Source: an uncultured bacterium
GTDB taxonomy: Bacteria; Omnitrophota; Gorgyraeia; Ghiorseimicrobiales; Ghiorseimicrobiaceae
DNA: 43,365 nucleotides
Assembly (NCBI GenBank): GCA_913009335.1
Contig: CAJVXN010000016.1
Location: 1 to 43,365 of the forward strand
Direction of reading: 5' to 3'
Shown: positions 11,973-39,200 of the stretch, in pieces
Layout of the letters: each line of letters begins with the position of its first letter
Numbering within the stretch: the stretch's first letter is position 1
Notes under the pieces: model-generated
What the model was told of the DNA's origin: nothing
The model's database searches: none
Seen by the model: the letters and a program-made list of their open reading frames with translations, nothing else
Program-made: the position numbers and the translations under genes

Positions 11973-15707
<3,735 letters not shown>

Positions 15708-15725
15708 TTTATAGGAGTGGAAAAT

Positions 15726-18700
15726 ATGTATGCTAGAGGAGAAAGAGTAATTTCGGTTTATATAGAAGAGGAAATGAAGGATTCGTATATCTCTTATGCG
15801 ATGAGTGTTATTGTTGGGCGCGCGCTTCCGGATATAAGAGACGGATTAAAGCCGGTGCATCGGCGAATTCTTTATACGATGCATGAGCTTAATCTGCGCC
15901 ATAACCAGCCATACAAGAAGAGTGCGCGTATTGTTGGTGACTGTTTTGTTAAAGACACGATGATCCTTACAGAAGAAGGGCTTGTATCTATCCAGGATGT
16001 TAAACGGGGGGATGTCGTTTATACGCAGAGAGGATGTGGGCGTGTTAGCGAACTTTATGTGATGCCTCCGAAGGAATTGTTGCGAATAGAGCTTGATAAT
16101 GGAACATATAATACGGTTACGCCGTCACAGAAAATAAAGGTTTTAAACAGCGATTTTAAGCTGGAATGGAAAGAAGCCAACAGGTTAAAAAGCGGCGATT
16201 ATATTGTGGTAAAAAGCTGTTATCCGGATATAAAACGCAAGGCAAAATTGCGGAAAACCCATTTTTTAAATCCCGGGTGTTTGAATGAAAACATTGCTTA
16301 TCTATTAGGTCTTTTTGTTTCGGAGGGGTGGATAGAAAAAAACAAACAGAGAAAAGATACCTATAGGATTAGCATTGCCTGTAATAGCCGCCAGATTATA
16401 GAAAAGGCAGCAGATATATTAATGCAGGAATTTGATTACCTAGCGAATATAGAGAAGAAGCGCTATGTATATCAAAACGCCAAGGCAGAAGAGGCGGTAA
16501 ATTATAGATATACGCTAAGGATTAATAGGGAATATATAACCAAATTTTTCATTAGTAACTTTAAAATCGCGGGCCTTAAGGCGCCCACCAAGCAAATTCC
16601 TCGCCAAATTTTTATCTCTCCTGAATCCGTTATTTATGCTTTTATATCCGGCTTGGTAGACGGCGATGGCAGCGTGCATAATAAGCGTAATACTATTCAT
16701 TATGGCTCTGTGTCGGAGAAGTTAATAAACCAACTACAAATTTTACTTCAGCATTTAGGGGTGTTCGCGGAAAAATATAGTGATGATAATTTTAAAAAGA
16801 TTCATTTTATTTGCGGCAGGAGGGTGAAGCGTAGATTACCATTTCATAGCCTGGAATTGGGAGGGGTTAATGCTAAATTGCTTGCTTCTAAGATTTCCTT
16901 GTGCCAACAGAGCAAGGAAGCAAGGCGCACCCGGATTATCAGCCAAAGATTGAAAAAGGCAGCTTTTGAGGTAGTTCCTTATGCGGGTGAAAATATATTC
17001 GCGGAATTGACCAATAAACATATAGGCGGTGGATGGTATAAATCTGCTTCCGGCGAAAAATTCCGAGCGGGAATAAAATATTCCGCGGGATCTAAGATTC
17101 GATATTCAAAAGAGCTGAGAAGTTTGCCTCTACGGAAAACACAAATTATTGAATGGGGCATTAAGGAGAAACTAGAAAAGATAAAATCACCGCTCTATGA
17201 TTTTGTAAACCACATTATAAAAGATAATATATATTTTATAAAAGTCGCCTCCATAACTAAGGCGCCCAGCCAAACTACATATGATATCCAGGTAGACGGC
17301 GACCATGAATTTATTGCCAATGGTATGGTGTCGCATAATTGCTTGGGAAAATTTCATCCCCATGGCGATACTGCGGTCTATGACGCTTTGGTGCGCATGG
17401 TGCAGGATTTTTCTTTGCGCTATCCGCTTATCGATGGCCAGGGAAATTTTGGTTCTATTGACGGGGATTCCGCTGCGGCAATGCGTTATACAGAGGCCCG
17501 AATGAGCCCTATCAGCAATGAAATGCTGCTAGACATAGAAAGAGATACTGTAAATTTCTCTCCGAATTTTGACGCTTCCTTAAAAGAGCCGGTAATTCTC
17601 CCTTCCGTATTACCTAATCTATTAATTAATGGTTCATCTGGTATTGCTGTAGGCATGGCCACTAATATTCCTCCGCACAATTTAGGCGAGGTGGTTGACG
17701 GGATAGTTTATTTGCTGGATAATCCGGATGCCGATGTGAAACAGTTAATGCGTTTAATAAAGGGGCCGGATTTTCCTACGGGGGGGGTTATTTGCGGGAA
17801 GGTTGGCATAAAAAGCGCCTATTCAACGGGGCGCGGTAAGCTTCTTGTGCGTGGAAGGGCCGCGATTGAAAGGCAGAAAAACGGAAAAGATTTAATTCTT
17901 ATAAATGAAATTCCTTACCAGGTAAATAAAACTTCTCTAATCGAGTCTATCGTGGGTTTAGTGGAAAGCAAAAGAGTAGAAGGGGTTTCGGATATCCGAG
18001 ATGAGTCGGATAAAGACGGTATGCGTATTGTTATAGAGCTAAAGCGGGGGATCGAGCCGCAGATAATATTAAATCAGCTATATAAGCATACTCAGCTTGA
18101 GACGACATACGGCACAATACTTCTTGCTTTGGTAGGGGGAAGGCCCAGAGTTTTAACCCTCAAACAAATACTCTCCGAATATATTGTTCACCGCAAGATA
18201 GTTATCCGCCGGCGCACGCAATTTGACTTAGATAAGGCTTTAAAACGCGCCCACATTTTAGAGGGTTTAAAAATTGCCATAAAGTTTCTAGACAGGATCA
18301 TAAAAACAATACGCGCATCAAAGAACACTTCGGTAGCTAAGGCCGCGTTGATGAAGAACTTTAAACTTTCTGATTTGCAGGCGCAGGCAATTTTGGAAAT
18401 GCAACTACAGAGATTAACCGCTCTTGAGCGCGATAAGTTGGACGCTGAATACGCAGAAGTTTTAAAAAAGATTGAGTTATGCCGCGCTATCCTTGCCTCG
18501 GAGGAAAAAGTCGAGAATATCATAAAAGAGGAACTAAGCGATCTTAAAAAACGTTTTGGGGATGGGCGTAGAACCGAAATAGCCGCGGAACGCGAAGAGA
18601 TAGAGGTGGAAGATTTAATCGCCGAAGAAGATATGGTAGTGACCATATCGCATGCGGGATACGTAAAGAGACTGTCGGTGTCTGCCTATCGAAAACAGCG

Positions 18701-19775
18701 TAGGGGCGGGAAAGGTAGTACCGCGATGGGCATGAGGGATGAAGATTTTATTGAGCATTTATTTGTTGCTTCAACTAAAGATTATCTGCTTGTATTTACC
18801 AATAAAGGGAAAATCTATTGGCTTAAGGCCCATGAAATTCCCCAGGCAGGCAGGACATCTAAAGGAAAAGCGGTTGTTAATCTTTTAGAGATGTCTAATG
18901 ATGAGTCAATTTCCGGAGTAATTCCCGTTAAAGACTTTTCGCCGGATAAATATCTTTTGATGATTACAAAATACGGTTTGATTAAGAAGATAGATCTAGC
19001 GGCATTTAGCAAACCAAGGCGCGCTGGAATTATCGCTTTAGGTTTAGGTAAAGATGATCAGCTTGTAGATGTACAGCTTACCGATGGAGCAGGGGAGATA
19101 CTTATTGCGACATCTCAAGGTAAGGCCATAAGATTTAAGGATGCTGATGTGCGAGACATGGGTAGAGGGGCTCGCGGTGTGCGAGGGATTAGGCTTGCAA
19201 AAAAAGATATAGTAATCGGGACAGCACTTGTAAGGCGCGATGCGACCGTTCTTACCGTAACCGAACACGGTTTTGGCAAGAGAACTGATTTTGATGAGTA
19301 TAGACAGCAGTCCAGAGGAGGCAAGGGGATTATTAATCTTAAGACCACCGAAAGAAACGGAAATGCCGTAGCATTAAAATCGGTTATTGATGATGATGAG
19401 TTGATAATGATCACGCAAAGTGGCATGTTGGTTAGGTGTGCGATTAAAGATATCCGCGCAACCGGACGTTCGACACAGGGTGTGCGCCTAATAAGATTAT
19501 CTGATAAAGATAAAGTTGCTTGCGTGGCTCGCGTTGTACCCGAAGAAGAAGATAAAGTCGAGGCATTACGAGCAAAAGAAGAAGCAGCAAGGAAAGAAGA
19601 AGGTAAGGCCGAGGAAGAAAGCGCTCCGGGGGCAGTCGAGATAGAGCAGGAGGAAAAGGAATCAGAAGAAAATAAAGTAGTAGAAACGGCAAAGGTGGAA
19701 GAAGCAGCTAAGGGGAAAAAAGAAAAACCAAAGGAAAAGACTGTTTCTAAAAGAAAAATAAAAAGGAAAAGATAA
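15726..19775 (+). CDS. gyrA: DNA gyrase subunit A precursor with intein
   Basis: The precursor opens with [20 protein letters not shown] and [19 protein letters not shown], then KSARIVGD, the intein, [20 protein letters not shown] and the catalytic AAMRYTE. The tyrosine falls at extein position 122 after intein removal, as in E. coli. The C-terminal beta-pinwheel follows ([17 protein letters not shown] is the GyrA-box region). A Lys/Glu-rich tail of about 90 residues ends the protein. I choose ATG 15726 with AGGAG 8 nt upstream; the track GTG at 15717 overlaps that site. The precursor is 1349 aa and the exteins 883. It lies 18 nt after gyrB. Confidence 0.96.
15942..17339 (+). mobile_element. 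GyrA intein with LAGLIDADG endonuclease
   Basis: The 466-aa intein occupies residues 73-538 (from ATG 15726). Block A is [13 protein letters not shown], the endonuclease motifs are [15 protein letters not shown] and [15 protein letters not shown], block F is [15 protein letters not shown], and block G is MVSHN with extein Cys next. The insertion point, RIVGD before LGKFHPHGD, is upstream of the known mycobacterial GyrA site next to the active tyrosine. Block B reads [11 protein letters not shown], so the usual TxxH histidine is glutamine. Confidence 0.95.
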
Positions 19776-24787: not shown

Positions 24788-24920
24788 ACCCCCGTTAGAG
24801 ATAGGTCATCTTTAGATGACCGTCTATTACGGCAGGACGGTTAAATAAGTTGTTGCTTCCATAACCGCGGTTTATTACATATGAACAATGGAGTAAAAAA
24901 ATCTCTAACAGGGGTAAACC
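24783..24920. repeat. CCCCGTTAGAGATA-type hairpin element after rsmI
   Basis: The order is GGTAAACCCCCGTTAGAGATA, hairpin GGTCATC-TTTA-GATGACC, GTCTATTACGG, about 70 nt, then ATCTCTAACAGGGGTAAACC. The outer parts match the element at 6278-6411, while the inner stem is a different sequence that still pairs. The ends are inverted copies of each other. A mini-ORF ATGAACAATGGAGTAAAA starts at 24871, as the parA ATG does in the other copy. Confidence 0.65.
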
Positions 24921-24935
24921 TTTTCTTGCAAGATG

Positions 24936-24975
24936 CGTCTAAATAGGTAGAAGGCAAAATTAACCTATTTAGACG
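24936..24975 (+). promoter_or_regulatory. Long hairpin in the leader of the collagen-like gene
   Basis: CGTCTAAATAGGT (24936-24948) and ACCTATTTAGACG (24963-24975) form a perfect 13-bp inverted repeat with a 14-nt loop. No U-tract follows. It lies 49 bp before the start codon and could be an operator or mRNA structure. Confidence 0.55.
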
Positions 24976-25024: not shown

Positions 25025-26026
25025 ATGAAAAAGACAGTGTTTGGATGGATAGTTGTGTTGCTGGCGGTTTTGTTGTTGGGTGTAGGCGCAAGAAATGTTT
25101 TAGCCCAGGAAGTGGGTGAGGATATTATTTCCGCCGCGGGAGAAGGCGATACAGTAACCCGGGATATGCCCCGCGCCCGCAAGGCCGAAATAGAAAGATT
25201 AAGGCGAATGCGCCAGAAGGATCCGGAGAAATTTAAAGAGATTATAGAAGCGCGGAAGGCGAAGCTGACAGAAAGAATTAGTGATTTAAAAGAAAACAAC
25301 CCCGAGAAATATCGGGAAGTTATGAAACGAAGACGTGTCAATCAAAAACAGCGCCTTGAGCATTTACGAGAAACAAATCCGGAAAAGTTCAAAGAAATTA
25401 CGCAGCAGAGAAGAGAAGTTCTGGAAAATAGATTAGTACAGATAAAAGAAAACAATCCTGAGCAATATGAAAGGATTATGAGGAAAAGACGTGTCAATCA
25501 AAAACAGCGCCTTGAGCATTTACGAGAAACAAATCCTAAACAGTTTAAAGAGGTAATGAAAAACAATCCTCGCTTGCGTGATCATTTAGAAGATGTCCGT
25601 GATAGACGCGAGGATAGAAGAGACAGGGACGGTAATCCTCCGGGACCAAAAGGCGGACCAGGAACTAATTGGGAAAACCCTCCGGGACCAAAAGGCGGGC
25701 CAGGTGCAAGCCCTGACATAAGGAGACGAAGAGACAGGGACGGTAATCCTCCGGGACCAAAAGGTGGACCGGGTGCAGGACCGAAGTATAGGAAAGGCAA
25801 TCCGCCAGGACCAAAAGGTGGACCGGGTGCAGGACCGAAGTATAGGAAAGGCAATCCGCCAGGACCAAAAGGTGGACCGGGTGCAGGACCGAAGTATAGG
25901 AAAAAGGGTTTGTCAGGCGCTAAGAGTGGCGGCAGCAGACCTGGTGGTGGCAAGCGTGGTGGCGGAGGCAGACGTGGTGGTGGCAAGCGCGGTGGCGGCG
26001 GCAGACGGGGCGGCGGCAGAAGATAG
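25025..26026 (+). CDS. Secreted repeat protein: coiled-coil, collagen-like GPKGGPG repeats, Arg/Gly tail
   Basis: The 333-aa product has a signal peptide (TVFGWIVVLLAVLLLGVGA, likely cleaved near VLAQ). A charged helical region of about 25-residue repeats follows, each with an NPEKFKE-type motif. Then come five NPPGPKGGPG units, three of them followed by AGPKYRK, and an Arg/Gly tail (KRGGGGRRGGGKRGGGGRRG). It is very basic. I do not recognise a family; the helical part loosely recalls Spy/CpxP-like periplasmic proteins. I choose ATG 25025 over the track GTG 25016. DNA-level repeats of about 54 nt suggest recent expansion. It lies 24 nt before an ECF sigma gene and probably shares its operon. 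Confidence 0.75.
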   Translation: MKKTVFGWIVVLLAVLLLGVGARNVLAQEVGEDIISAAGEGDTVTRDMPRARKAEIERLRRMRQKDPEKFKEIIEARKAKLTERISDLKENNPEKYREVMKRRRVNQKQRLEHLRETNPEKFKEITQQRREVLENRLVQIKENNPEQYERIMRKRRVNQKQRLEHLRETNPKQFKEVMKNNPRLRDHLEDVRDRREDRRDRDGNPPGPKGGPGTNWENPPGPKGGPGASPDIRRRRDRDGNPPGPKGGPGAGPKYRKGNPPGPKGGPGAGPKYRKGNPPGPKGGPGAGPKYRKKGLSGAKSGGSRPGGGKRGGGGRRGGGKRGGGGRRGGGRR

Positions 26027-26050
26027 TGTATATAGCCAGGTTTATTTGAG

Positions 26051-26665
26051 ATGGACGCATATAAAGAAGAGGAAATGATCGCACAGATTCGCGCCGGTGA
26101 CTCCGGCGCCTTCTGTGAATGGGTCGAGAAACACAAAACCAAAGCTGTAAGTGTGGCTTATTCATTTTGCGCCAATTATGAAGACGCAAAAGACATCTCT
26201 CAGGAAGCTTTTATAAAAACGTTTAAGGCTATGAAACATTTTAGAGGAAGTTCAAAATTATATACGTGGTTTTATCGCATTTTAGTTAATGTATGCAAGG
26301 ACTATTTAAGACGTAAGAACAGAAATAGATTTATTAATTTTAATATTAGATTTAATTCCAGGGAAGCGACAACAGGTCAACAAGATATTTTTGAAAGAAT
26401 CGCCTCAAGCGATCCTACTCCGGGTGAGCAATTACTGAATAAGGAATTGGGCGAAGAATTAACTTCAGCAATAGCTTCTCTTCCGGAGAAGCAAAGGACA
26501 GCATTTATTTTAAAGAATATTCATGGGTTAAGTATTAAAGAGATCGCAGAAATTACCAGGTCTGCTGTCGGTACGATAAAGGCGAATTTATTTAAGGCAA
26601 CGGCTAACCTGCAGAGTAAATTAAAAATATATACTCAAGCAGAAATTCCCGGAGGTGTGATATGA
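26051..26665 (+). CDS. ECF-type RNA polymerase sigma factor
   Basis: The 204-aa product has region 2 (YEDAKDISQEAFIKTFKAMK and FRGSSKLYTWFYRILVNVC) and region 4 (LPEKQRTAFILKNIHGLSIKE followed by EIAEITRSAVGTIKANLFKA), the pattern of sigma-70 ECF factors that direct polymerase to envelope or stress regulons. The stop overlaps the anti-sigma start as ATGA. The gene lies 24 nt after the collagen-like secreted protein, so that protein is either a target or part of the signalling unit. Confidence 0.94.
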   Translation: MDAYKEEEMIAQIRAGDSGAFCEWVEKHKTKAVSVAYSFCANYEDAKDISQEAFIKTFKAMKHFRGSSKLYTWFYRILVNVCKDYLRRKNRNRFINFNIRFNSREATTGQQDIFERIASSDPTPGEQLLNKELGEELTSAIASLPEKQRTAFILKNIHGLSIKEIAEITRSAVGTIKANLFKATANLQSKLKIYTQAEIPGGVI

Positions 26666-27324
26666 AGAACTGCCAATTTAAAAAAGAAACACTCATTGGT
26701 TATTGCTATAATGAGCTTGCGCCAGATGAAGCAAAGCAGGTCAAAGACCATCTGGGTGTATGTAAAAACTGCGAGCTAGAAGTAAGCCGATTAAAAGAGA
26801 CGATTGCTTTTTTCAAGCAGCATAAATTAAAAGAGCCACCACGGGGATTACTTGATGGCTATACCCAAAAGATAAAAGAAGCAATTGTTGAAGGCGAAGA
26901 GAAAAGCGGGATATTTTCCGGTCTAGATAAAAAACTAGCGGTTTTTATGAATAATCTTAGGCTTGCTTTTTATCCTCGGTTGATACCCGTGGCTGTTACT
27001 ATTTGTATCGTGGCATTTATTTTTCTGGTAACTAGGGGTGAGAGGGCAGAGCATTTAAATACAATAAGTCAGGAAATTGCTCTTTTTGATGAACTTAGCG
27101 GAGATGTAGCTGAACTTCTTATGTTAAGCGATGAAAACAACTTGGTAGAGGAGCTTAATAATTCCGATAGGATTTTTCTTGCTCAGCTTGAAGAAAATAC
27201 GGAGACAGAGGTAGAAGACATGCTTTACGAGCTGGAACTCCTTCAGGAGTTAGGGGAGCTTGATGAGGGGGGAGATTACCTTGAAGATGAACTCGACCTC
27301 CTAGACGAAGTAGAGGTTGGGTAA
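26662..27324 (+). CDS. Membrane anti-sigma factor with zinc-finger-like N-terminus and acidic C-terminus
   Basis: The 220-aa product starts with a ZAS-like domain (GYCYNELAPDEAKQVKDHLG then VCKNCELEV, an HxxxCxxC arrangement) that should hold the sigma factor. One membrane helix follows (LIPVAVTICIVAFIFLVT, about residues 111-128). The outside part is strongly acidic, ending with repeated Leu/Glu/Asp (LYELELLQELGELDEGGDYL and on). It overlaps the sigma gene by four bases. The acidic exterior contrasts with the basic secreted protein two genes upstream, which suggests but does not prove that they interact. Confidence 0.88.
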   Translation: MKNCQFKKETLIGYCYNELAPDEAKQVKDHLGVCKNCELEVSRLKETIAFFKQHKLKEPPRGLLDGYTQKIKEAIVEGEEKSGIFSGLDKKLAVFMNNLRLAFYPRLIPVAVTICIVAFIFLVTRGERAEHLNTISQEIALFDELSGDVAELLMLSDENNLVEELNNSDRIFLAQLEENTETEVEDMLYELELLQELGELDEGGDYLEDELDLLDEVEVG

Positions 27325-27627: not shown

Positions 27628-27852
27628 ATGAAAAAGAAAGATAAGCTTTATAGAGTGGTTACCTTCTTGGATAGGGAAGAGCTGGATTTCGTAGACGGTT
27701 TAGTAAAAGACATCTATTTTGAATATGGCATAAAAATCCCACGCGCGAAGCTGCTTGAAGAAATTGTTGAGGCTTTAAAGCATAGAGGCTCAAAAAACAA
27801 AGAGTCTATCGAGCAAGAACTGGTGCGGATGTTTATAGAAAAGGGAGAATAG
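27628..27852 (+). CDS. Small protein, possible ribbon-helix-helix DNA-binding protein
   Basis: The 74-aa product has a beta-like start LYRVVTFLDREELDFVDGLV followed by two predicted helices (KIPRAKLLEEIVEALKH). This layout resembles ribbon-helix-helix regulators but has no diagnostic motif. AGGAG lies 8 nt before the ATG. It stands alone, between a terminator at 27431 and another at 27876, upstream of the first giant gene. The 165 bp before it are AT-rich with no clear gene. Function unknown. Confidence 0.65.
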   Translation: MKKKDKLYRVVTFLDREELDFVDGLVKDIYFEYGIKIPRAKLLEEIVEALKHRGSKNKESIEQELVRMFIEKGE

Positions 27853-27976: not shown

Positions 27977-30900
27977 ATGAAAAAGAAAAATATTTCTGTT
28001 GTTTTAATTATGATGATTGCCTTTAGCATATTATCTATTTCTCAATATCCTGCTTTTTCTGAAACGCAGAGAGATTATGATAATTCCGGGCTTCCTATTT
28101 CTTTGGCGGCTCCCCAGTATGAATCTATATATGAAGATTCGCCGTTTGCTATTCATGGGGTGAGATTTTACAACCAAGATGCTGATGAAGGGGAATTAAT
28201 ACAGGGTCTTGGAGCTAGAATGGCAAGGATAGAGCCGATCGGGAGCCTTGTGTGGGATGCTATTGAAATTGAAATAGGTGTGTATGACTGGGTTAAAAGT
28301 GATTTTGTAATGAGTGAGGGGCTTAAGGCTGGAGTTAAAATTTTTGGGACAGTGGTTCCTGCAAACAAACTTTATGGGGCAGTTGAGGGAGAACCAATAG
28401 GCCTTCCCGATGACATGGGGGCGTATTTGCTTTTTTTGAAAAAGGCCGTTGAGCGTTATGATGGAGATGGGATTGATGATGCTCCTGGTTCTCCGAGGAT
28501 TGATGTAATTCAGATTTATAACGAAATTGATGGGAAGCATTCTTGGAATGATACCCCGGAGAATTATGCATTGCTTCTGCAGAAATCCTATGTTGCAATA
28601 AAAGAGGCTGATCCGACAATGAAAGTGGCAATTGCAGGTGTGGCATCTCCGCGTGGGTATTATGATTTTTACAGGTTGATTTTTGAGGAACTGGCTAAAA
28701 TAAGCCCGAATCAAAAATGTTTTGATATTTTTGATTTACATTGGCATGGAGTAACAGAGGGTGATAATGATTACGCTGTCAAACATTATTCCTATGGGGA
28801 TTATTATTTGCGGGATGTAATATCAGATATAAAAGCAGACCTAAGCATACTTAACTATAGCGATGTTAATCTGGTCATTACCGAAATGTCTGACTACAGT
28901 GATTCTCCCGCCTCCGGTAACAACCTGACATTTCCTTATCATACAGAAGTTTATCATGCCTCATCAGTTATCAAAAGGTTTGTTTATTCCTTGGCCAGTG
29001 ATGTTGATAAAATTTTTTGGGCTCAGATAATTGAACATCACAATTTTGGAGAAGAAGTTAACGGCTATTTTGACAATGTTGCTTTAATTAATAATCCGAA
29101 AAATACTGATGGTTATTCGCATAAAAAACTTGCCTATTACACATACAAAAAAATGGTTGAAATTTTAGAAGGAAGCGACTGGGATAATATTGAGATTATT
29201 CAAGAATCAGATAATGTTTATATTTATAAATTTATAAAAGACGACAAGCCTGTTTGGGTTGCCTGGAATGATAATGAATATTCTCAGACTGTTTCCTTAA
29301 GCGATTTAGGGATAACCAGCGCAAAGGTTACTGAAACTATACCTAACTTCAATGACGGATTGGAAATTGTGAATAGCGGAGCTGATTATAATGATCCCGA
29401 CTTCTTTAATTCTTACACTGCTTCAAATGATATTACCTTGGGGGATGTTCCGGTGTTTATTGAGGAATGGGGTGGGACGTCTGGTTATGAAGATTCTCCT
29501 TTTGGGTTTCATACTGCAGTACCTTATGAAGACGCAAATTATATCGGCGCAGAATGGACCAGGGGCGGAAGCGCGCCATATATATTTTGGTCGCATGTTG
29601 ATCCTAATAAAACAGGTGATCAAAATCAGTTTCAGTGGCAAGGGGAAACCGCAAAAGGCTATTTTAATTATGATAATCTCAACTTTGCAAAAGATGCAGG
29701 ATTAAACCAGATGCATAATATTGATGTCCAGCCCGCTCAAGTAAGCGGATACCGGAAAGCCGACTCGTGGCTTCCTGTCGACGAGGAGGCTTATATTAAT
29801 TTCGTAAAAGCGGCTATTAAGCGTTATCCGTTTATCCGTTATTGGCAGATAGGAAACGAGCCGGTAGCAAGAAAATCCGACTACGGAAGGTTTCTTTCTA
29901 TAACTTATGATGCCATAAAGGATGCTGATGAAGAATTGAGACAAATCGATCCGGACTTAGCGGAGTCGAAAGTATTTATAGGAGGGGTTGCGGGCCTGCA
30001 TTCACCGCGGTCTATATCGGAATACAAAGAAACTTTCAATGTTTCTTATCTTCCGCTCTTAGAAGACGTAGCAGAACAGGGTGTGAGATGTTTTGATATT
30101 TTTGATTTTCATTGGTACGGCGACGCGGTTGATTATTACAAAATGACCCGGGATATCTATGAATATATTTCAGAGAAAATAGACGAGTTAGGGATTCCTT
30201 CCCCTGAGGAATATTGGATAACGGAAATGGGGACTTACAGCGGAGACCCTAAAGCTATATCTAGGGGAGGCAATACTGGGATAGACTGGGGTTATCAATC
30301 AGAGAAGCAGCAGGCGCAGGATTTGGTAAAGAGATATATTTATCCTCTATCGAGCGGTATAAAGAAAGTCTTTATGGCCTGGGGGCTTAAAGAGGGTTTT
30401 CATTATGATGAAGGGTATTTTGATTTTACGGGTTTGATTTATGACGGCGTGTTTGATCCTGTTTATATCGAAGATGGGGATAAAAAGCTCGGCTATTATA
30501 CATACAAAAAAATGACTGAAATTTTAGAAGGAAGTGATTGGGATAATATCGAAACTGTCCAGGAAGAGGGCGATGTCTATATATATAAGTTATTAAAAGA
30601 CGGGAAGCCTATATATGTTGCCTGGAATGACAGTGGCATAGAAAAGAATATTACAATCTCCGATATTAATACAAACGCGGTCAAGATCACCGAGGCCGTG
30701 CCGCATTACGCCTTAGGCATAGATGTAGTTAATTACGATGATGCCTTTAGCATTGGAACAAACTCCGTATCAAACGGACAGGTAGATATTACTTTAGGAG
30801 ATGTCCCTATATTCATCGAGGCCCTATCTCCCGAAGACGACACCACCGGCCCCACAACTCCTGTAGTAACCGATGAGGGCGCGACTACCTCAAGCACCGC

Positions 30901-33900
30901 CCAGCTTTATGGTCAGTGGCAATCAGAAGATCCCGAATCAGGTATAACCGAGTACCAGTATAGGATTACTAAAGATTCCTCTCAAGGGGCGATTATTAGG
31001 GATTGGACCTCTACAGGAGAATATAACTATGTTACAGCGGCAGTTAATCTTGAGCAGGGCACAACCTATTACTTTTCTGTCAAAGCCATAAACGGCGCGG
31101 GCCTTGAAAGCATCGGCTATTCAGACGGAATAACTGTTAATTATAACTTCTTTGTCTCCATCACTTCACCAGAGAATGATTCTTATGTTTCCGGGCGCGT
31201 AAAAGTTGAAGCAGAGGCTTATGCCGGAGATATAGGTATTGATGAAGTAGAATTCTTTGTTGACGGCGGCTCAATAGGTACTGATTCAAGTGACCCTTAT
31301 TACCGTAATTTCTACACATCAGATTTTGCGCTTGATTCAACTCACACAATAAAAATAATCGCTTATGATGAAGAGGGTAATACGGCAACTGATTCCGTAA
31401 GTGTAACAGTTGACAACGAGGATCCTGAAATCTCCGGGATGGAGGCTACACTTAGAGAAAATAGTTCTTGTGAGATCTCCTGGACTACGGATGAGCCGGT
31501 TACCTCCAGGCTCACATATGGAGAGGCCTCTTCTATGGATAACGCGTTAGAGGATGACGCCTTAAAGACCGAACACTCTTTTACCATAGACGGCCTTACC
31601 CAGGGAACAAAGTATTACTACAAAGCCTATGCAACAGATAGGGCAGGTAATGAAGATTCCTCTTCCAGGAAGTACTTCTATGCGGACTTTGTTAATGCTT
31701 ATAGTTTATCCATTACTGCGGGTTCCTCTGGCGGGTATGTTGCAGTAGAACCCGAAAAGGAGAATTATGGCATCGGTGAAACAGTTACCCTAATAGCTAC
31801 AGCAAATACAGATTATGAATTTGCTTATTGGTCAGGGGATCTATCCGGCAGCCAAAACCCGATTACGATAGCTATGGATTCGAATAAATTCATTACGGCA
31901 AATTTTATTTTCACAGCCGATGATGCTACTCCTCCTACTATTCCAGAAGTAGAAGATGAGGGGCAATATACAGCATCGACTAATAGATTAAGCGCAGGGT
32001 GGTATTCAGAAGATCTTCAGTCAAATATTACCGGATATTATTATTGTATTGGTACTGCGCCGCTTGAGGATGACGTTTTAGCATGGAACCTAGAGCCAAC
32101 ATTAGAGACAGCAGTTACAGTAGAAGGCCTAAATTTGACAGACGGGACAACCTATTATTTTAGCGTTAAAGCTATAAACGGCGTAGGCCTTGAAAGTGAA
32201 ATAGGTTATTCTGACGGAATAACTGTTAATTATAATTTCTTTGTCTCCATCACTTCACCGGCTAATGATTCTTATGTCTCCGGCCGTGTTAAGGTCTATG
32301 CCGAGGCCTATGCTCCGGATATAGATATCGACAGGGTAGAATTCTTTGTTGACGGCGATTCAATAGGAGATGATTCATCCAGTCCGTATTATCGTAACCT
32401 ATACACAAGAGATTTTGCGCTTGGATCAATTCACACCATAAGAGTAGTTGCTTATGATGAGGTGGACAATACGGCAACTGATTCCGTAAGTGTAATAGTT
32501 GACAGCGTTGATCCTGAAATCTTCGAGTTGGAACATGTACTTGGAGAAAATAATTCTTGTACAATCTCCTGGATTACAGATGAGCCGGCTACTTCCAGGC
32601 TCGAATATGGGAACACCTCTTCCAGGGATAACACATTAGAAGATGATGTTTTAAAGACTGAACATTCTTTTATCATAGACGGTCTTACCCAGGGGGTTAA
32701 GTATTACTATAGAGCCTATGCATTAGATATAGCAGGTAATGATGATTCTTCGTCCAGCAAGTACTTCTATATGGATAGTATAGTACCTACTGTGTCTATT
32801 CTCTCTCCTGAGGATGGAGCCTATGTTGGCTCAAGACCTAAAATAGAAGTAGCAGCAGAAGATGCTGAGACAGAGGTTGATAAAGTAGAATTTTATGTCG
32901 ATGAAGAACTTAAATACACAGATTCAGGCGATCCATTTTATTATAATTGGTACACAACAGGCCTTGAAGCAGGCTCAACTCATACCATAAGAGTAGTTGC
33001 TTATGATGATTTGGGCAATACTGCAACTGATTCTATAAGTGTAACAGTTGACAGCGTTGATCCTGAAATCTTCGAGTTGGAACATGTACTTGGAGAAAAT
33101 AATTCTTGTACAATCTCCTGGATTACAGATGAGCCGGCTACTTCCAGGCTTGAATATGGAGATACCTACTCTATGGAAAATGCATTAGAGGATGATGTTT
33201 TAAAGACTGAACATTCTTTTACCATAGACGGTCTTACCCAGGGGGTTAAGTATTACTATAGAGCCTATGCATTAGATATAGCAGGTAATGATGATTCTTC
33301 GTCCAGGAAATACTTCTATGCGGACTTTGCTAGCTTGTTTACTCTAAGTATTACTGCTGACCCAGAGGGCGGGACAGTTTTTATAGAGCCCGAGAGAGAT
33401 CTTTATCCTGAGGGGGAAACAGTTGCTTTAGAAGCTGTGGCTAATGCAGGGTTTGCCTTTGACGGCTGGCAAGGAGATTTATCGGGAACTACTAATCCGA
33501 CAACAATAACTATGGATTCGGATAAAGTTATTACCGCAACTTTCCGAATTGTCCCTGTCTATGCTCTTGAGATTCTAACTTTTTCGACCAGTACAGTATT
33601 GCGAGATCCAGATCAGGAAACTTACAGCGAGGGTGTCGAGGTATCTTTGACAGCAGTTCCCGATGAAGGTTATATTTTCCGAGAATGGGGAGGTCCGGGA
33701 GGGCCTGATATCTCTGAGGCGCGAAATAATCCTGTAACAATAACAATGGATTCGGATAGGACTGTGCATGCGTATTTTATGCTTCTCGAGGATGATATCG
33801 AACCACCAGTTGTAACTATAGATTCTCCGCAAGACGGCGCGATCTTACCGGCAGCGGATTTTGATTTTAGCGGAACTGCTATAGATGCAGCAGGCATAGA

Positions 33901-36193
33901 AGGAGTGTATGTTTCTATATATAATACGGCTACTTCAAGCTGGACAGCGTCTAATGTGGCAGTTGAGGGTAGTTTAGAAGAATGGGTTTTTAATGTGATA
34001 CTAGATACTCATGTAACAGCAGGATATAGGGCGGATCTTTATGTTAATGTTCAAGACAATGCGGGAAACTGGACAATGGATACAAGAGCGTCTGTTAATA
34101 TAAGCAGTGAAACACTCTACCTTTTAACCGTCAACCCGCAAAATTGTACTGTTGAAAAAAATCCGGATCAGGCAATTTATGGGGACGGGGATGAGGTAAC
34201 ATTAACAGTTGTAGCTGATGTAGAATATAGATTCCTAGAATGGGGCGGTGACATAGCAGGAACAAGCAATCCTATCAGCATTACTATGGACTCGGATAAA
34301 ATTGTTAATGCCTACTGTGAGCCTACCTCCTCAGAGGTTTCTGTCTCTATTACTTCGATAGAGAATGATTCTTATGTTTCCGGGCGCGTAAAAATTGAAG
34401 TAGAGGCTTATGCCGGAGATATAGGCATTGATAGAATAGAGTTTTATGTTGATGGTGATCTTTTAGGTTCTGATTCTTCTGTTCCTTTCTCCCGCAATTG
34501 GTACACAACAGATTTTGCGTTTGGATCAACCCATCTAATAGAGGTAGTTGCTTATGATGATTTAGGCAATACGGCAACTGATTCTATAAGCGTAACAGTT
34601 GATAACGTTGATCCTGAAATCTTCGATATTACAGTTGAGATTGTGGAGGATTTTTGTGAACTCTCCTGGACTACAGATGAACTTTGCACAATAAGACTTA
34701 CTTATGGTGATACATATGAGATGACTAATGAAATAGAAGATGCTGAGTTTAAAATTCAGCACAGCGTAAGGATAGACGGTCTTATCCAGGGGGTTAAGTA
34801 TTACTACAGGATTTATGTAACAGATAGGGCCGGCAATGAAGAAAATACCTCCAGAAAATACTTCTATATGGATAGCATATTACCTATTGTGTCTATTGTC
34901 TTTCCTGAGGATGGGGATTATGTTGGCTCAAGACCTAAAATAGAAGTAGCAGCAGAAGATGCCGAGACAAACATTGATAAGGTAGAATTCTATATTGACG
35001 ATGTGCTTGAATATGACGATACAGGTGCTCCGTATGCCTATAATTGGTACACAACAGGTCTTGAAACAGGTTCAACTCATACCATAAGAGTAGTTGCTTA
35101 TGATGAGGCGGGTGGTACCGCAGAAGATTCTGTAAGTGTAATTGTGGACCCTGATGATCCTGTAATCTCTGATGAGATTATAGTTGAGTTTATAGGAGAT
35201 GATACTTGTGAACTCTCCTGGACTACAGATGAACCTTGTGTCTCCATGCTTACTTATGGAGAGACCTCTTCCATGGTAAATATTCTAGAAGACGATACTT
35301 TTAAAACCGAACATTCTTTTACCATAAACGGTCTCGGCCAAAGCATTAGGTATTACTATAGGATTTATGTAACAGATAGGGCCGGCAATGAAGAAAATAC
35401 CTCTAGAAAATACTTCTATGCTGACTTTGGTCTATCAACATATACCTTAACTGTAAATTTAGATTTTAGTCAGGGGTATGTATTGATAGATCCGGAATGG
35501 GCAGAATATGGTGAAGGGGAAGTGGTTACTGTATCCGCCGTAGGTAGTACAGGGTTTGCCTTTGACGGTTGGCAGGGAGATTTATCAGGAACTACTAATC
35601 CGGCAACGATAACCATGGATGCGGATAAAACTATTACCGCAACCTTTAGAAGTGTTATTGTTTATACTCTTACTGTTAATGAGCAAAACGGACGGGTTGG
35701 GATTATACCAGATACAGGAGAGTATTCTGTAGGCACTGAGGTTTCGTTAGTGGCAATACCAGATGCAGGATATATATTTGCCGGTTGGTCAGGAGATATA
35801 TCAGGATATGTTGTTTTGGCCACTATAATCATGGATAGCAACAAAACGGTTACGGCAAATTTCATTCTCCCGGGAGATGATACGACACCTCCGGATGTAA
35901 CTATAAATTCTCCGCAAGATGGCGCGATCTTGCCGGCAGCGGATTTTAATTTTAGCGGAACTGCTATAGATGCATCAGGTATAGGGGGAGTGTATGTTTC
36001 TATATATGATACGGCAACTTCAACTTGGACATTATCTAATGAGTCAGCAGAAGGGGATTTAAGAGATTGGCTCTTTAATGTAATAGTTGGTACTCATGTC
36101 ACATCAGGTTATCGTGCGGATCTCTATGTCAACGTTCGAGACAACGCGGGAAATTGGACATGGGATACGATGGTGTCAGTTAACATAGAATAA
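27977..36193 (+). CDS. Giant exported protein with two tandem clan-A glycoside hydrolase-like domains and many Ig/Fn3/InlB modules
   Basis: The 2738-aa protein has a signal peptide (ISVVLIMMIAFSILSISQYP). Two related TIM-barrel hydrolase-like domains follow (about 50-498 and 504-950), each with a paired NE and TE glutamate. After that come two Fn3-like modules, about five Ig-like modules (SYVSGRVKVEAEAYA type), five Fn3/phosphatase-N-like modules (SCEISWTTDEPVTSRL type), six InlB-type repeats (GWQGDLSGTTNPTTITMDSD type) and two further Ig-like modules, one at the very end. No PEP-CTERM, LPXTG or T9SS sorting signal is seen. It probably acts outside the cell on polysaccharide, with the modules acting as spacers or binders. 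The substrate is unknown. Confidence 0.88.
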   Translation: MKKKNISVVLIMMIAFSILSISQYPAFSETQRDYDNSGLPISLAAPQYESIYEDSPFAIHGVRFYNQDADEGELIQGLGARMARIEPIGSLVWDAIEIEIGVYDWVKSDFVMSEGLKAGVKIFGTVVPANKLYGAVEGEPIGLPDDMGAYLLFLKKAVERYDGDGIDDAPGSPRIDVIQIYNEIDGKHSWNDTPENYALLLQKSYVAIKEADPTMKVAIAGVASPRGYYDFYRLIFEELAKISPNQKCFDIFDLHWHGVTEGDNDYAVKHYSYGDYYLRDVISDIKADLSILNYSDVNLVITEMSDYSDSPASGNNLTFPYHTEVYHASSVIKRFVYSLASDVDKIFWAQIIEHHNFGEEVNGYFDNVALINNPKNTDGYSHKKLAYYTYKKMVEILEGSDWDNIEIIQESDNVYIYKFIKDDKPVWVAWNDNEYSQTVSLSDLGITSAKVTETIPNFNDGLEIVNSGADYNDPDFFNSYTASNDITLGDVPVFIEEWGGTSGYEDSPFGFHTAVPYEDANYIGAEWTRGGSAPYIFWSHVDPNKTGDQNQFQWQGETAKGYFNYDNLNFAKDAGLNQMHNIDVQPAQVSGYRKADSWLPVDEEAYINFVKAAIKRYPFIRYWQIGNEPVARKSDYGRFLSITYDAIKDADEELRQIDPDLAESKVFIGGVAGLHSPRSISEYKETFNVSYLPLLEDVAEQGVRCFDIFDFHWYGDAVDYYKMTRDIYEYISEKIDELGIPSPEEYWITEMGTYSGDPKAISRGGNTGIDWGYQSEKQQAQDLVKRYIYPLSSGIKKVFMAWGLKEGFHYDEGYFDFTGLIYDGVFDPVYIEDGDKKLGYYTYKKMTEILEGSDWDNIETVQEEGDVYIYKLLKDGKPIYVAWNDSGIEKNITISDINTNAVKITEAVPHYALGIDVVNYDDAFSIGTNSVSNGQVDITLGDVPIFIEALSPEDDTTGPTTPVVTDEGATTSSTAQLYGQWQSEDPESGITEYQYRITKDSSQGAIIRDWTSTGEYNYVTAAVNLEQGTTYYFSVKAINGAGLESIGYSDGITVNYNFFVSITSPENDSYVSGRVKVEAEAYAGDIGIDEVEFFVDGGSIGTDSSDPYYRNFYTSDFALDSTHTIKIIAYDEEGNTATDSVSVTVDNEDPEISGMEATLRENSSCEISWTTDEPVTSRLTYGEASSMDNALEDDALKTEHSFTIDGLTQGTKYYYKAYATDRAGNEDSSSRKYFYADFVNAYSLSITAGSSGGYVAVEPEKENYGIGETVTLIATANTDYEFAYWSGDLSGSQNPITIAMDSNKFITANFIFTADDATPPTIPEVEDEGQYTASTNRLSAGWYSEDLQSNITGYYYCIGTAPLEDDVLAWNLEPTLETAVTVEGLNLTDGTTYYFSVKAINGVGLESEIGYSDGITVNYNFFVSITSPANDSYVSGRVKVYAEAYAPDIDIDRVEFFVDGDSIGDDSSSPYYRNLYTRDFALGSIHTIRVVAYDEVDNTATDSVSVIVDSVDPEIFELEHVLGENNSCTISWITDEPATSRLEYGNTSSRDNTLEDDVLKTEHSFIIDGLTQGVKYYYRAYALDIAGNDDSSSSKYFYMDSIVPTVSILSPEDGAYVGSRPKIEVAAEDAETEVDKVEFYVDEELKYTDSGDPFYYNWYTTGLEAGSTHTIRVVAYDDLGNTATDSISVTVDSVDPEIFELEHVLGENNSCTISWITDEPATSRLEYGDTYSMENALEDDVLKTEHSFTIDGLTQGVKYYYRAYALDIAGNDDSSSRKYFYADFASLFTLSITADPEGGTVFIEPERDLYPEGETVALEAVANAGFAFDGWQGDLSGTTNPTTITMDSDKVITATFRIVPVYALEILTFSTSTVLRDPDQETYSEGVEVSLTAVPDEGYIFREWGGPGGPDISEARNNPVTITMDSDRTVHAYFMLLEDDIEPPVVTIDSPQDGAILPAADFDFSGTAIDAAGIEGVYVSIYNTATSSWTASNVAVEGSLEEWVFNVILDTHVTAGYRADLYVNVQDNAGNWTMDTRASVNISSETLYLLTVNPQNCTVEKNPDQAIYGDGDEVTLTVVADVEYRFLEWGGDIAGTSNPISITMDSDKIVNAYCEPTSSEVSVSITSIENDSYVSGRVKIEVEAYAGDIGIDRIEFYVDGDLLGSDSSVPFSRNWYTTDFAFGSTHLIEVVAYDDLGNTATDSISVTVDNVDPEIFDITVEIVEDFCELSWTTDELCTIRLTYGDTYEMTNEIEDAEFKIQHSVRIDGLIQGVKYYYRIYVTDRAGNEENTSRKYFYMDSILPIVSIVFPEDGDYVGSRPKIEVAAEDAETNIDKVEFYIDDVLEYDDTGAPYAYNWYTTGLETGSTHTIRVVAYDEAGGTAEDSVSVIVDPDDPVISDEIIVEFIGDDTCELSWTTDEPCVSMLTYGETSSMVNILEDDTFKTEHSFTINGLGQSIRYYYRIYVTDRAGNEENTSRKYFYADFGLSTYTLTVNLDFSQGYVLIDPEWAEYGEGEVVTVSAVGSTGFAFDGWQGDLSGTTNPATITMDADKTITATFRSVIVYTLTVNEQNGRVGIIPDTGEYSVGTEVSLVAIPDAGYIFAGWSGDISGYVVLATIIMDSNKTVTANFILPGDDTTPPDVTINSPQDGAILPAADFNFSGTAIDASGIGGVYVSIYDTATSTWTLSNESAEGDLRDWLFNVIVGTHVTSGYRADLYVNVRDNAGNWTWDTMVSVNIE
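28130..29470 (+). other. Glycoside hydrolase-like domain 1 of giant protein 1
   Basis: Residues about 52-498. QIYNEIDG (Glu183) fits the acid/base Asn-Glu of clan GH-A barrels and LVITEMSDYS (Glu303) fits the nucleophile. The spacing of about 120 residues is reasonable. GH39/GH5-like enzymes are possible. A small beta domain (PVWVAWND) ends the module. Confidence 0.65.
29487..30830 (+). other. Glycoside hydrolase-like domain 2 of giant protein 1
   Basis: Residues about 504-951. It repeats domain 1: EDSPFGFH start, WQIGNEPV (Glu628), FDIFDFHWYG, WITEMGTYS (Glu750), KLGYYTYKKMTEILEGSDWD and a closing VAWNDSG segment. The catalytic glutamates are kept in both, so both may be active. Confidence 0.7.
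32498..32757 (+). repeat. Near-identical 260-bp coding repeat, copy A (copy B 33047-33306)
   Basis: The copies are 549 bp apart and almost identical, with differences concentrated in one window of about 45 nt in the middle. They encode adjacent SCTISWITDEPATSRL modules. Other modules in the gene are far more diverged, so this pair arose or was homogenised recently. Confidence 0.85.
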
Positions 36194-36278: not shown

Positions 36279-36297
36279 AAGCCACGGAGTGTATGAG
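36279..36297 (+). repeat. Shared leader of giant gene 2
   Basis: TAAGCCACGGAGTGTATGAG precedes ATG 36298 and matches the leader of giant gene 1 except for a 2-nt insertion. The track GTG start at 36289 lies inside it. Confidence 0.7.
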
Positions 36298-39200
36298 ATG
36301 AATAAGGATTGCCAAGCGCACCTAACACTGAAAACTAGCATTTTCATCCACGAATATAGACAAATTCTGCTAGGGAGATTTATGTCTTGGTTCTTTTTTT
36401 TGCTCCTTATGCCCAGACTATTTAAAAGATTCCAAGTAGTTAAGGTAAAAACAGTCTTATGCGCTATCTTCTTAAGCATTGGTTTGAGCTACGTGCCTTG
36501 CGCTTGGAGTCAAGGGGTTATCTTTGAGGATGATTTTTCACAGACTGGAGTTGGTTGGGTAGGACCGACTAGTGGAACTTGGCAGACTGATCCAAATTTA
36601 AAAAATTGGGATTATTACAGAATAGGTGCAAGTAACGAAGACCTGAGAACTGTTGCCGGGGGGACTGGGGGTACTCCTGTAATGAGATTTGGTTATGATG
36701 CTGGGAGTGGACAAAGACTAGCTGTAAGCTTAGGAAAATTCTTGACTACTCCTGCTCAACACTCATCAGGTGTTGGTTACGATGAGGTTTATATTAGATA
36801 TAGAGTAAAATTAGATGATTATTGGCGTAGTGGGGATGGGCTTGTTAAAGATTGGAAATGGATGAGGTTATTTCAAAACAGAGATCCTTCTCAGTCATTT
36901 AGTAATCAAGGTGAGAGTGATCTTCCTAAAGACACTGGATTTATGATCTTAGCTTCTGCATTAGGGGAGAGTTATTTATCTCCTGCAACTTGGGGAGTTA
37001 CTGCTGCAATAAATGATCTTAATGGGGATAGCCATGAGTGGAAAAATAAAGTTAAATTTAGTGGAACAACATCAACCTGTTCTGATTGTGGGCATTTTGA
37101 AAGTGTTCCTGGTTGGGATTTTGATAATAATGGGTATTTAACCCAAGGATACTCTAATTCTCAACAATGGCACACATTAGAATGGCATATAAAGTTATCC
37201 ACAGGTACTTGTAATGCTGCTGGAACAGGAGATGAAAATGGTATCTATGAAATGTGGATTGATGGAGTAAAGCAAGACAATAATTATCAGAGAATATCAG
37301 TAGGAGGTACACAATTATTTGATTGTAATGCTCTTGCTACAAATAAAAGAGGTGTTGGGATAAATTGGATTATTATTTTTGACAATATGAAAGATTGGAC
37401 AGAATATTGGAATGATGCGACAAATGCTCCATCAGGCTGGCAAACTGGACAAAAATATGTTTATCTCGACGATGTGGTTATCTCAACTTCTTATATCGGC
37501 CCCAACTATGTCATCGGCGGGTTAAAGGTCGCTACAAGCTCATTACCCGATGCGACAGTCGGCAGTTCGTATTCTCAAACCCTCACCGTCCAAGGCGGCA
37601 CAGCTCCTTATGTTTGGTCGCTTACATCAGGCAATTTGCCTGTCGGTCTATTCCTGCTCTCAGATGGCACAATCTCAGGCACGCCCGTAACTGAAGGTAC
37701 ATATAATTTTACGGTGGAGGTAATTGACGCGGATGCTAACACAGCGCAAAAAGATTTAGCCCTGACTGTTAACACTCTACAGTTATCCGGAGACAAGGTA
37801 GTATCACGTTCGGTTTTAAGCGCAGGGCATGATCAAGCGCATGCGACAACTCGCGGGCATGTAACTAAAATTGCACGTTTTGGAGGCAGGTGGTATACAG
37901 CTCATGCACAGGGACCAGATACGTCACTATCTGTGTATGATGGCGCCAGTTGGAATACATCTTTTTGGGATGGCCCTAAAGAGCTTTTACGTAATGGTGA
38001 TAGGATTTACGGCGTTAAAATGGAAGATCTAGATCCTGCGCCTGATGTCTGGCAGATGAAGCTATCCGGTCAGAAGTATAAAATTAATGGCTCTGTACTT
38101 TCTTTAGAGGATGAAGGGCATATGTATACGGCAACACTCGGAGGCAGACAGACGATTTTTTATTATCCTCAAATAATAAGACAGAGTGATGGAAGGTTTG
38201 CTGTAGCGGTTGACTATGTCGATCAAGATAGAGGCACAAATAACACGACAGCCTGTAGAGTTATCTCTACTAATCCTGGAGATATTACGTCTTGGCAGCC
38301 GCATGAGTTATGTACGGATGAGTGGAGTCCTACAGAGGCACCTCATGAGTATATAGCGCTGCCGGGTGGGGCAGCTTATTCGATTATAAAGATTAATGTT
38401 AATTCTGAAAGTTCGAATACTATGTTTTTAGGGCGCTATTTTAACGGTACTAATTGGGATGCTAACGATGCATTAATTGCTAATGGGATTGCGAATTTTT
38501 GGAATGGCGACGACAGGAGGATGACCGCGCAATATGATCCGCATACAGGCATAATTCATCTTCTCTATATTGCAGGCCCGAATAATTCTTTATATTACCG
38601 CACGCTGGATATCAATAATATTTCATCTCCCCACAGAGCTTCTGATTGGTCAAGTCCTCAGGTGATTCATACGAATGTATTTACGGTTACTATGGGCATT
38701 GATAAAACTACAAATCCTTCAAGGCTTACTATGGTTTATGGGGACATAAAACATGCCCATAATACGTCCTGGGGAGATAATCGGGCCATAGTAGGAGATC
38801 TCTACCTTCAGCGTTTTGACGGGTATCAGTGGCAGCCTAACACATTACTTATCAGTGAACCTGGCTGGGATTATAATAACTATCCTAATATTTCAGAAGA
38901 GCAAGACGCGGATCAGGCAGGAATACTCTATTTACGTATGTCTAAAAACTCAGCTTGGCCAAAGGGTAATCGCGATACCATGTTTGTTGTTACGGAAACT
39001 CTTGCGTCCAATAAACCACCTGTTGCCAATGCTTCATTAAGTAATGATTCGGTAACTATTAGTCAGAGTATTAGTTTTGATGCTTCAATTTCTTTTGATT
39101 CGGATGGAAGTATTACTTTGTTTGATTGGGATTTTGGAGATGGAGCAACAGCCAGCGGGCAGAAGGCAACACACGCCTACACAACTGGTGGCTTAAAAGA

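Follow-up and report, generated by a model that had tools for sequence, protein, structure and literature searches.

The closest described counterparts of the operon reported here are RpoE-RseA-RseB of Escherichia coli and AlgU-MucA-MucB of Pseudomonas, in each of which an ECF sigma factor, an anti-sigma factor with one transmembrane (TM) helix, and an exported partner belong to an autoregulated operon and sense the state of the envelope (PMC8103513, PMC7400510). RseB is a periplasmic partner shielding the anti-sigma factor RseA (PMC8103513), and both RseB and MucB are known as exported anti-sigma partners acting as brakes (PMC8103513, PMC7400510). Spy, a basic helical chaperone, attracts negatively charged clients by its basic surface (PMC8144458). 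We found nothing on point in the literature on DUF3106 and sigma factors, or on Omnitrophota and sigma factors or envelope stress.

We analyzed a stretch of 43,365 nucleotides from the genome of an uncultured bacterium of Omnitrophota, a phylum that has hardly been studied by experiment; the entire stretch is termed the window below. The window carries an operon for an ECF sigma factor, a one-TM anti-sigma factor and an exported partner, as in E. coli and Pseudomonas. In contrast to RseB and MucB, the partner is a basic protein with a 26-residue helical repeat, bearing no detected resemblance to the two proteins, and its gene is placed first in the operon, not behind the anti-sigma gene. The exterior of the anti-sigma factor also differs from those of the above systems, as it is an acidic tail.

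Components of the operon

Three ORFs on the same strand fill positions 25025-27324 (+) of the window, as the preliminary description of this DNA had noted. They encode the exported basic protein of 333 aa (25025-26026), an ECF sigma factor of 204 aa (26051-26665), and a membrane anti-sigma factor of the zf-HC2 type of 220 aa (26662-27324). The sigma gene starts 24 nt past the basic gene and shares a 4-nt overlap with the anti-sigma gene.

The sigma factor matched PF04542 (Sigma70_r2) with 63.9 bits and PF08281 (r4_2) with 51.7 bits, both over the cut-off, as well as TIGR02937 with 108.5 bits. It is short and comprises sigma-70 regions 2 and 4 only, which qualifies it as an ECF sigma factor, and we label it SigW/RpoE-like on the basis of the NCBIfam models. 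The genome to which the window belongs contains five matches to sigma-70 region 2. As for the anti-sigma factor, the zf-HC2 score of 23.2 bits was slightly above the cut-off of 22.2; the protein has the HxxxCxxC motif (residues 30-37) and one TM helix at the hydropathy maximum (residues 106-124; 26977-27033, +), and its gene adjoins the sigma gene, all of which are the hallmarks of class I zinc-finger membrane anti-sigma factors. Only 15 out of 49 homologues matched zf-HC2; loss of the zinc motif is frequent among them, as is known for this class (PMC7406223). The exterior, which follows the TM helix (27034-27321, +), spans 96 residues rich in Leu, Glu and Asp with a net charge of -29 and a pI of 4.05, and is conserved in four orthologues. 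The AlphaFold2 model of the anti-sigma factor was usable only in the N-terminal domain, as the pLDDT of the exterior was below 45.

The basic protein starts with a putative signal sequence of about 27 residues ending in NVLA/QE (25025-25105, +; read from the sequence), and a hydrophobic N-terminus was found in all of the 54 homologues linked to a sigma gene. The mature protein bears a net charge of +41 with a pI of 11.1. An array of 25-residue helices was predicted by AlphaFold2 (input of three sequences; pLDDT mostly 73-89 over residues 50-190) at 25172-25633 (+); the helices are interrupted at each N/D-P-E with a period of 26 residues, and both ends of the protein are disordered in the model. 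The period was also evident in the homologues, in which P-x-x-[FYW] motifs stood exactly 26 residues apart in 125 out of 205 spacings, while the shuffled control sets yielded 0.45 spacings of 24-28 residues per set. The helix array is followed by a variable, lineage-specific linker with NPPGPKGGPG cassettes (25637-25903, +) and a tail rich in Gly, Arg and Lys with a net charge of +13 (25904-26023, +). DRRED-type repeats, a tail similar to that in the window, and the NPPG cassette were found in 23, 26, and only 4 of the 54 linked homologues, respectively. The helical repeats recognized in the preliminary description are thus real, but its reading of the cassettes as collagen-like did not hold, because the longest uninterrupted run of G-x-y ahead of the tail is 3 and the cassettes are rare among the homologues. 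We regard the collagen-like part as incidental, dispensable and lineage-specific, and rejected the reading of the basic protein as a collagen or RGG-protein, as the cassettes are restricted to particular lineages and lack a Gly-X-Y run.

Neither Pfam nor NCBIfam placed the basic protein of the window in an accepted family, and no solved structure in PDB was similar to it in sequence (E up to 0.001) or in fold (Foldseek). The 54 homologues had no Pfam match to the RseB family, and no match to DUF3106 (PF11304) either. With respect to PF07813 and PF13801 (LTXXQ and Metal_resist), a single homologue matched PF13801 weakly (E of 0.0036) and the remainder matched neither. The membership of the basic protein in the Spy, DUF3106 or RseB family was rejected by these results from Pfam, PDB, and Foldseek.

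Linkage across Omnitrophota and the shared promoter

The preliminary description proposed surveying the co-occurrence of the three genes, and we examined their linkage in two directions across 384 Omnitrophota genomes, most of which are incomplete MAGs. A profile of the repeat domain matched proteins in 70 of the 384 genomes. In 55 loci, the basic gene was located directly upstream of, or overlapped, the gene for an ECF sigma factor. Nearly all of those loci that were not ended by a contig edge continued with the gene for a membrane anti-sigma factor. The matches lacking a neighboring sigma gene were mostly at contig ends or comprised the DRRED part alone (profile positions 137-179), and we excluded the latter from the family as this part is promiscuous. 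The true exceptions, in which the repeat was present but the sigma gene was absent, were found in G171, G036 and G174, the last of which encodes a fusion protein (see below for the details). When the entire anti-sigma factor was used as the query, orthologues were detected in only four genomes, and in three loci in a species-wide collection that was scanned with this query alone. The operon thus seemed rare until the basic protein served as the query.

In the reverse direction, the profile of 46 basic-linked sigma factors was searched against the same 384 genomes. There were 58 sigma matches with at least 190 bits, a line drawn from a held-out test and the observed scores rather than set in advance, and the basic gene was found upstream in 57 of the 57 testable cases; the remaining match, in G070, starts at the edge of its contig. 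The basic genes in G416, G253, G219, and G217 were found by this reverse search, as they had been missed by, or were cut for, the first profile. Five sigma matches below 190 bits had no basic gene and belong to other sigma modules. The basic protein is therefore not a protein that occurs mostly apart from the sigma pair. In the tree of 98 sigma factors, the 54 basic-linked ones occupied one side of a single branch with a support of 98/94, and this branch was recovered in 98% of the bootstrap trees. The basic-linked sigma factors form a single clade. Over 20 families of Omnitrophota are represented among them, in two or more classes of the phylum.

The basic gene of the window is preceded by a predicted ECF promoter, GTAAACCTTTT-N11-CGTCTAA (24914-24942, +), which fits the consensus exactly and is located 82 nt ahead of the ATG. 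The dyad TAAAC-N16-CGTC was detected upstream of the basic genes in 25 out of 52 sequences (at most 5 after shuffling), and the full consensus, GTAAACCTTTT-N11/12-CGTCTAA, occurred with few changes ahead of about 50 of the 55 basic genes. From its position and co-distribution, we infer that the sigma factor encoded in the operon recognizes this promoter. As the same promoter heads almost all of the operons, the operon is probably autoregulated. Altogether, the three genes have been kept together with their own promoter in about 57 of the 384 genomes. Thus, we propose that the exported basic protein probably belongs to the switch and is not a neighbor by chance. In the window, the -10 element forms an arm of a 13-bp inverted repeat (CGTCTAAATAGGT / ACCTATTTAGACG; 24936-24975, +); this repeat is lineage-specific, being found in 4 of the 44 promoters checked, and is shorter in L012 and L100.

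The strict form of the promoter motif had 45 occurrences in the 384 genomes, spread over 34 of them, whereas its reversed pattern, used as a control, had 2. G218 is the sole genome among the 34 with neither the basic gene nor the sigma operon; for G219, the evidence came from the reverse search. Among the 45 sites, 27 precede the operon, one precedes a second basic gene, and 17 are elsewhere. All of the 13 readable sites in the last category lie ahead of a gene whose product is exported or located in the outer membrane, or of an operon holding such a gene; TolC-like, DRRED, and HP-repeat proteins are among the products. One of them is the second strict copy in the genome of the window (G000:C60:5303; L202), which precedes the gene for a secreted EF-hand protein, a paralogue sharing the NPPGPKGGPG cassettes, and a looser match was found at G000:C10:49700.

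Charges, parallel modules and a fused protein

The preliminary description regarded the exterior of the anti-sigma factor as strongly acidic, and this feature proved to be general: all of the 49 exteriors scored were net negative, ranging from -4 to -33 with a median of -12. For comparison, the 18 anti-sigma factors of the Spy-type set had a median of -5 (p of 2.4e-7), and the charge per residue was -0.19 in the basic-linked exteriors and -0.12 in the Spy-type exteriors (p of 1.7e-4), where both p-values disregard the kinship among loci related by descent. On the partner side, 46 out of 48 basic proteins were net positive. No covariation between the charges of the basic protein and the exterior was found (rho of -0.15, p of 0.31), and quantitative co-evolution of the charges was rejected on this ground. 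Thus, the sign of the charge is conserved on each side but the magnitude is not matched between the partners.

Omnitrophota also carry other ECF/anti-sigma operons with an exported helical protein. In one class (L014, L015, and others), the partners match the Metal_resist/LTXXQ families (Spy/CpxP/CnrX-like). These Spy-type modules resemble the operon in the window in combining an ECF sigma factor, a zf-HC2 anti-sigma factor and an exported helical protein, but differ in the sigma groups, in the gene order (sigma, anti-sigma, and partner), and in the exterior, which is short, weakly acidic and often ends in IEEYFL. In another class (L157, L158, and L162), the partners matched DUF3106 (PF11304) with 89-101 bits. 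The DUF3106 modules share with the operon in the window an exported basic partner with a helical repeat and an acidic Leu/Glu/Asp exterior, of the ENLDLLED type, while the repeat is shorter (about 18-19 aa), the sigma group is separate, and the gene order is different. The extreme C-terminus of the anti-sigma factor carries a conserved acidic-hydrophobic motif that differs from one module class to the next. The basic-repeat module is a third solution with a partner that is unrelated or very distantly related to those of the other two. Spy and CpxP, which are basic, all-helical, and stress-induced with negatively charged clients (PMC8144458), can be considered as functional analogues of the basic protein, albeit no match to them was found in sequence or by Foldseek. 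We additionally detected a further ECF module in L258, L259, L260, and L261, in which a sigma factor and an anti-sigma factor are combined with an exported protein of small size (about 150-180 aa); in three of the four loci, an exported protein beginning with ELVVADFDTGDKPNN follows the module.

The fusion in G174 (L131, 4767-5594, -) is a single ORF encoding a signal-like N-terminus, the basic repeat domain, and an acidic tail of 53 aa. The tail shared 40% identity with the anti-sigma exterior of G070 (E of 8e-4) and aligned with the anti-sigma exteriors of its own family with a z of 10.2 over composition-keeping shuffles, but far less with the exteriors of other classes. The acidic exteriors of other families are homologous to this acidic half. 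As two otherwise separate parts are joined in one protein, the fusion suggests that the basic domain and the anti-sigma tail bind each other. No sigma gene is nearby and the fusion was found in one of the 27 genomes searched in the family; it could be a remnant of a deletion.

Possible role of the basic protein and other genes in the window

We consider the operon as an autoregulated ECF module watching the envelope, in which the basic protein would most likely cap the acidic exterior as a brake or a titration sensor in the style of RseB, CpxP or Spy, and we are evenly divided on whether this reading is correct. The binding, the sign of the brake, the titration, and the proteolysis are what we infer in the following scheme. 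The anti-sigma factor would keep the sigma factor tethered to the membrane's inner face and stay intact as long as the exported helical-repeat protein binds its exterior. Upon envelope damage, the basic protein would be pulled away to unfolded or anionic clients, and the uncapped anti-sigma factor might be cut by regulated proteolysis, freeing the sigma factor to transcribe its own operon and the genes of other exported proteins. The basic protein, which would be the first and probably the most abundant product, would then accumulate until the anti-sigma factor is capped again. This reading draws on the two-way linkage, the single sigma clade, and the promoter shared by the basic genes and the genes for other exported proteins, on the exteriors being always acidic beyond the level of the Spy-type set with mostly positive partners, and on the fusion in G174. 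The Metal_resist/LTXXQ and DUF3106 modules, which put helical exported proteins in the same operon role, and the precedents of Spy (PMC8144458) and RseB (PMC8103513) point in the same direction, and we also count in its favor a member of the site-2 protease family (M50) encoded in the genome of the window. On the other hand, the lack of charge covariation, the pLDDT of the exterior, and the lack of a similar solved structure speak against it, as does the occurrence of the fusion in one genome, with no adjacent sigma gene and possibly as a deletion remnant. The preliminary description had cast the basic protein as the signal or brake sensed by the anti-sigma factor on the grounds of their opposite charges and shared operon; the idea gains from the conserved linkage, the shared promoter and the fusion, but a purely electrostatic pairing is not borne out by the charges. 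More tentatively, and with less than even confidence, we can conceive a titration sensor operating across the phylum, in which the acidic exterior would be a decoy imitating the clients of a chaperone, so that the free basic chaperone would be measured directly and its synthesis adjusted via the dedicated ECF promoter.

The same operon could arise if the basic protein were merely an output of the regulon, namely an envelope-stress protein (binding the wall, lipids, or nucleic acids, or acting as a chaperone) that never touches the anti-sigma factor, which would sense something else. The basic gene would then stand first in the apparently autoregulated operon since its product is needed in quantity, and the second basic or DRRED copies standing alone behind the same promoter (G001:C36, G241:C45, and G027:C4), the uncorrelated charges of the partners, and the acidity, albeit weaker, of the Spy-type exteriors are all in line with this idea. 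Nevertheless, we regard it as rather unlikely, because the presence of the basic gene with every testable member of the sigma clade is stricter than what a mere output needs, and the fusion joins the basic domain to an anti-sigma tail. Opposite charges and a fusion would suit binding of either sign, and the basic protein might instead accumulate outside the cell or in the periplasm and bind the acidic exterior as an activating signal, triggering the release of the sigma factor in a positive feedback or quorum-like manner. We find this improbable, as a regulon whose first product was its own activator would be prone to staying switched on, and as the known exported partners of anti-sigma factors, RseB and MucB, work in the opposite sense (PMC8103513, PMC7400510). 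The acidity of the exterior could also be a by-product of exported tails being commonly acidic, with the Leu/Glu/Asp tract serving as a degron or a site for a protease and not for docking. Every Spy-type exterior is indeed mildly acidic (net -1 to -9), and the class-specific acidic-hydrophobic motifs at the C-terminus fit a tail recognized by a protease; yet a basic-repeat or DUF3106 partner goes with a clearly higher acidity of the exterior, and such a tail was captured in the fusion with the basic domain, which leave this explanation with little probability.

Regardless of which reading is correct, the analysis defines an uncharacterized family of exported proteins, the group of sigma factors that goes with it, and the site on the DNA that they probably use. 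The capping of the acidic exterior by the basic protein offers a hypothesis on how an anti-sigma factor may read the state of the envelope. Taken with the Spy-type and DUF3106-type modules, the operon suggests that membrane anti-sigma factors have repeatedly recruited exported helical partners.

Downstream of the operon, the window encodes a small protein of 74 aa that weakly matched a ribbon-helix-helix (FitA-like) model (27628-27852); its gene precedes the first of two genes for giant secreted proteins (27977-36193, 2738 aa; 36289-42897, 2202 aa). The product of this first giant gene, a surface protein, contains Big_7, fibronectin-like, and divergent InlB B-repeat domains. Upstream, the genes for GyrB (11979-15707) and GyrA (15717-19775) contain an intein each (Intein_splicing, 64.5 and 57.7 bits, respectively), and GyrA also bears a LAGLIDADG endonuclease. 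A stand-alone LAGLIDADG protein of 262 aa (870-1658, -), encoded beside a flavoprotein-like gene, may be a free homing endonuclease or what is left of an intein.
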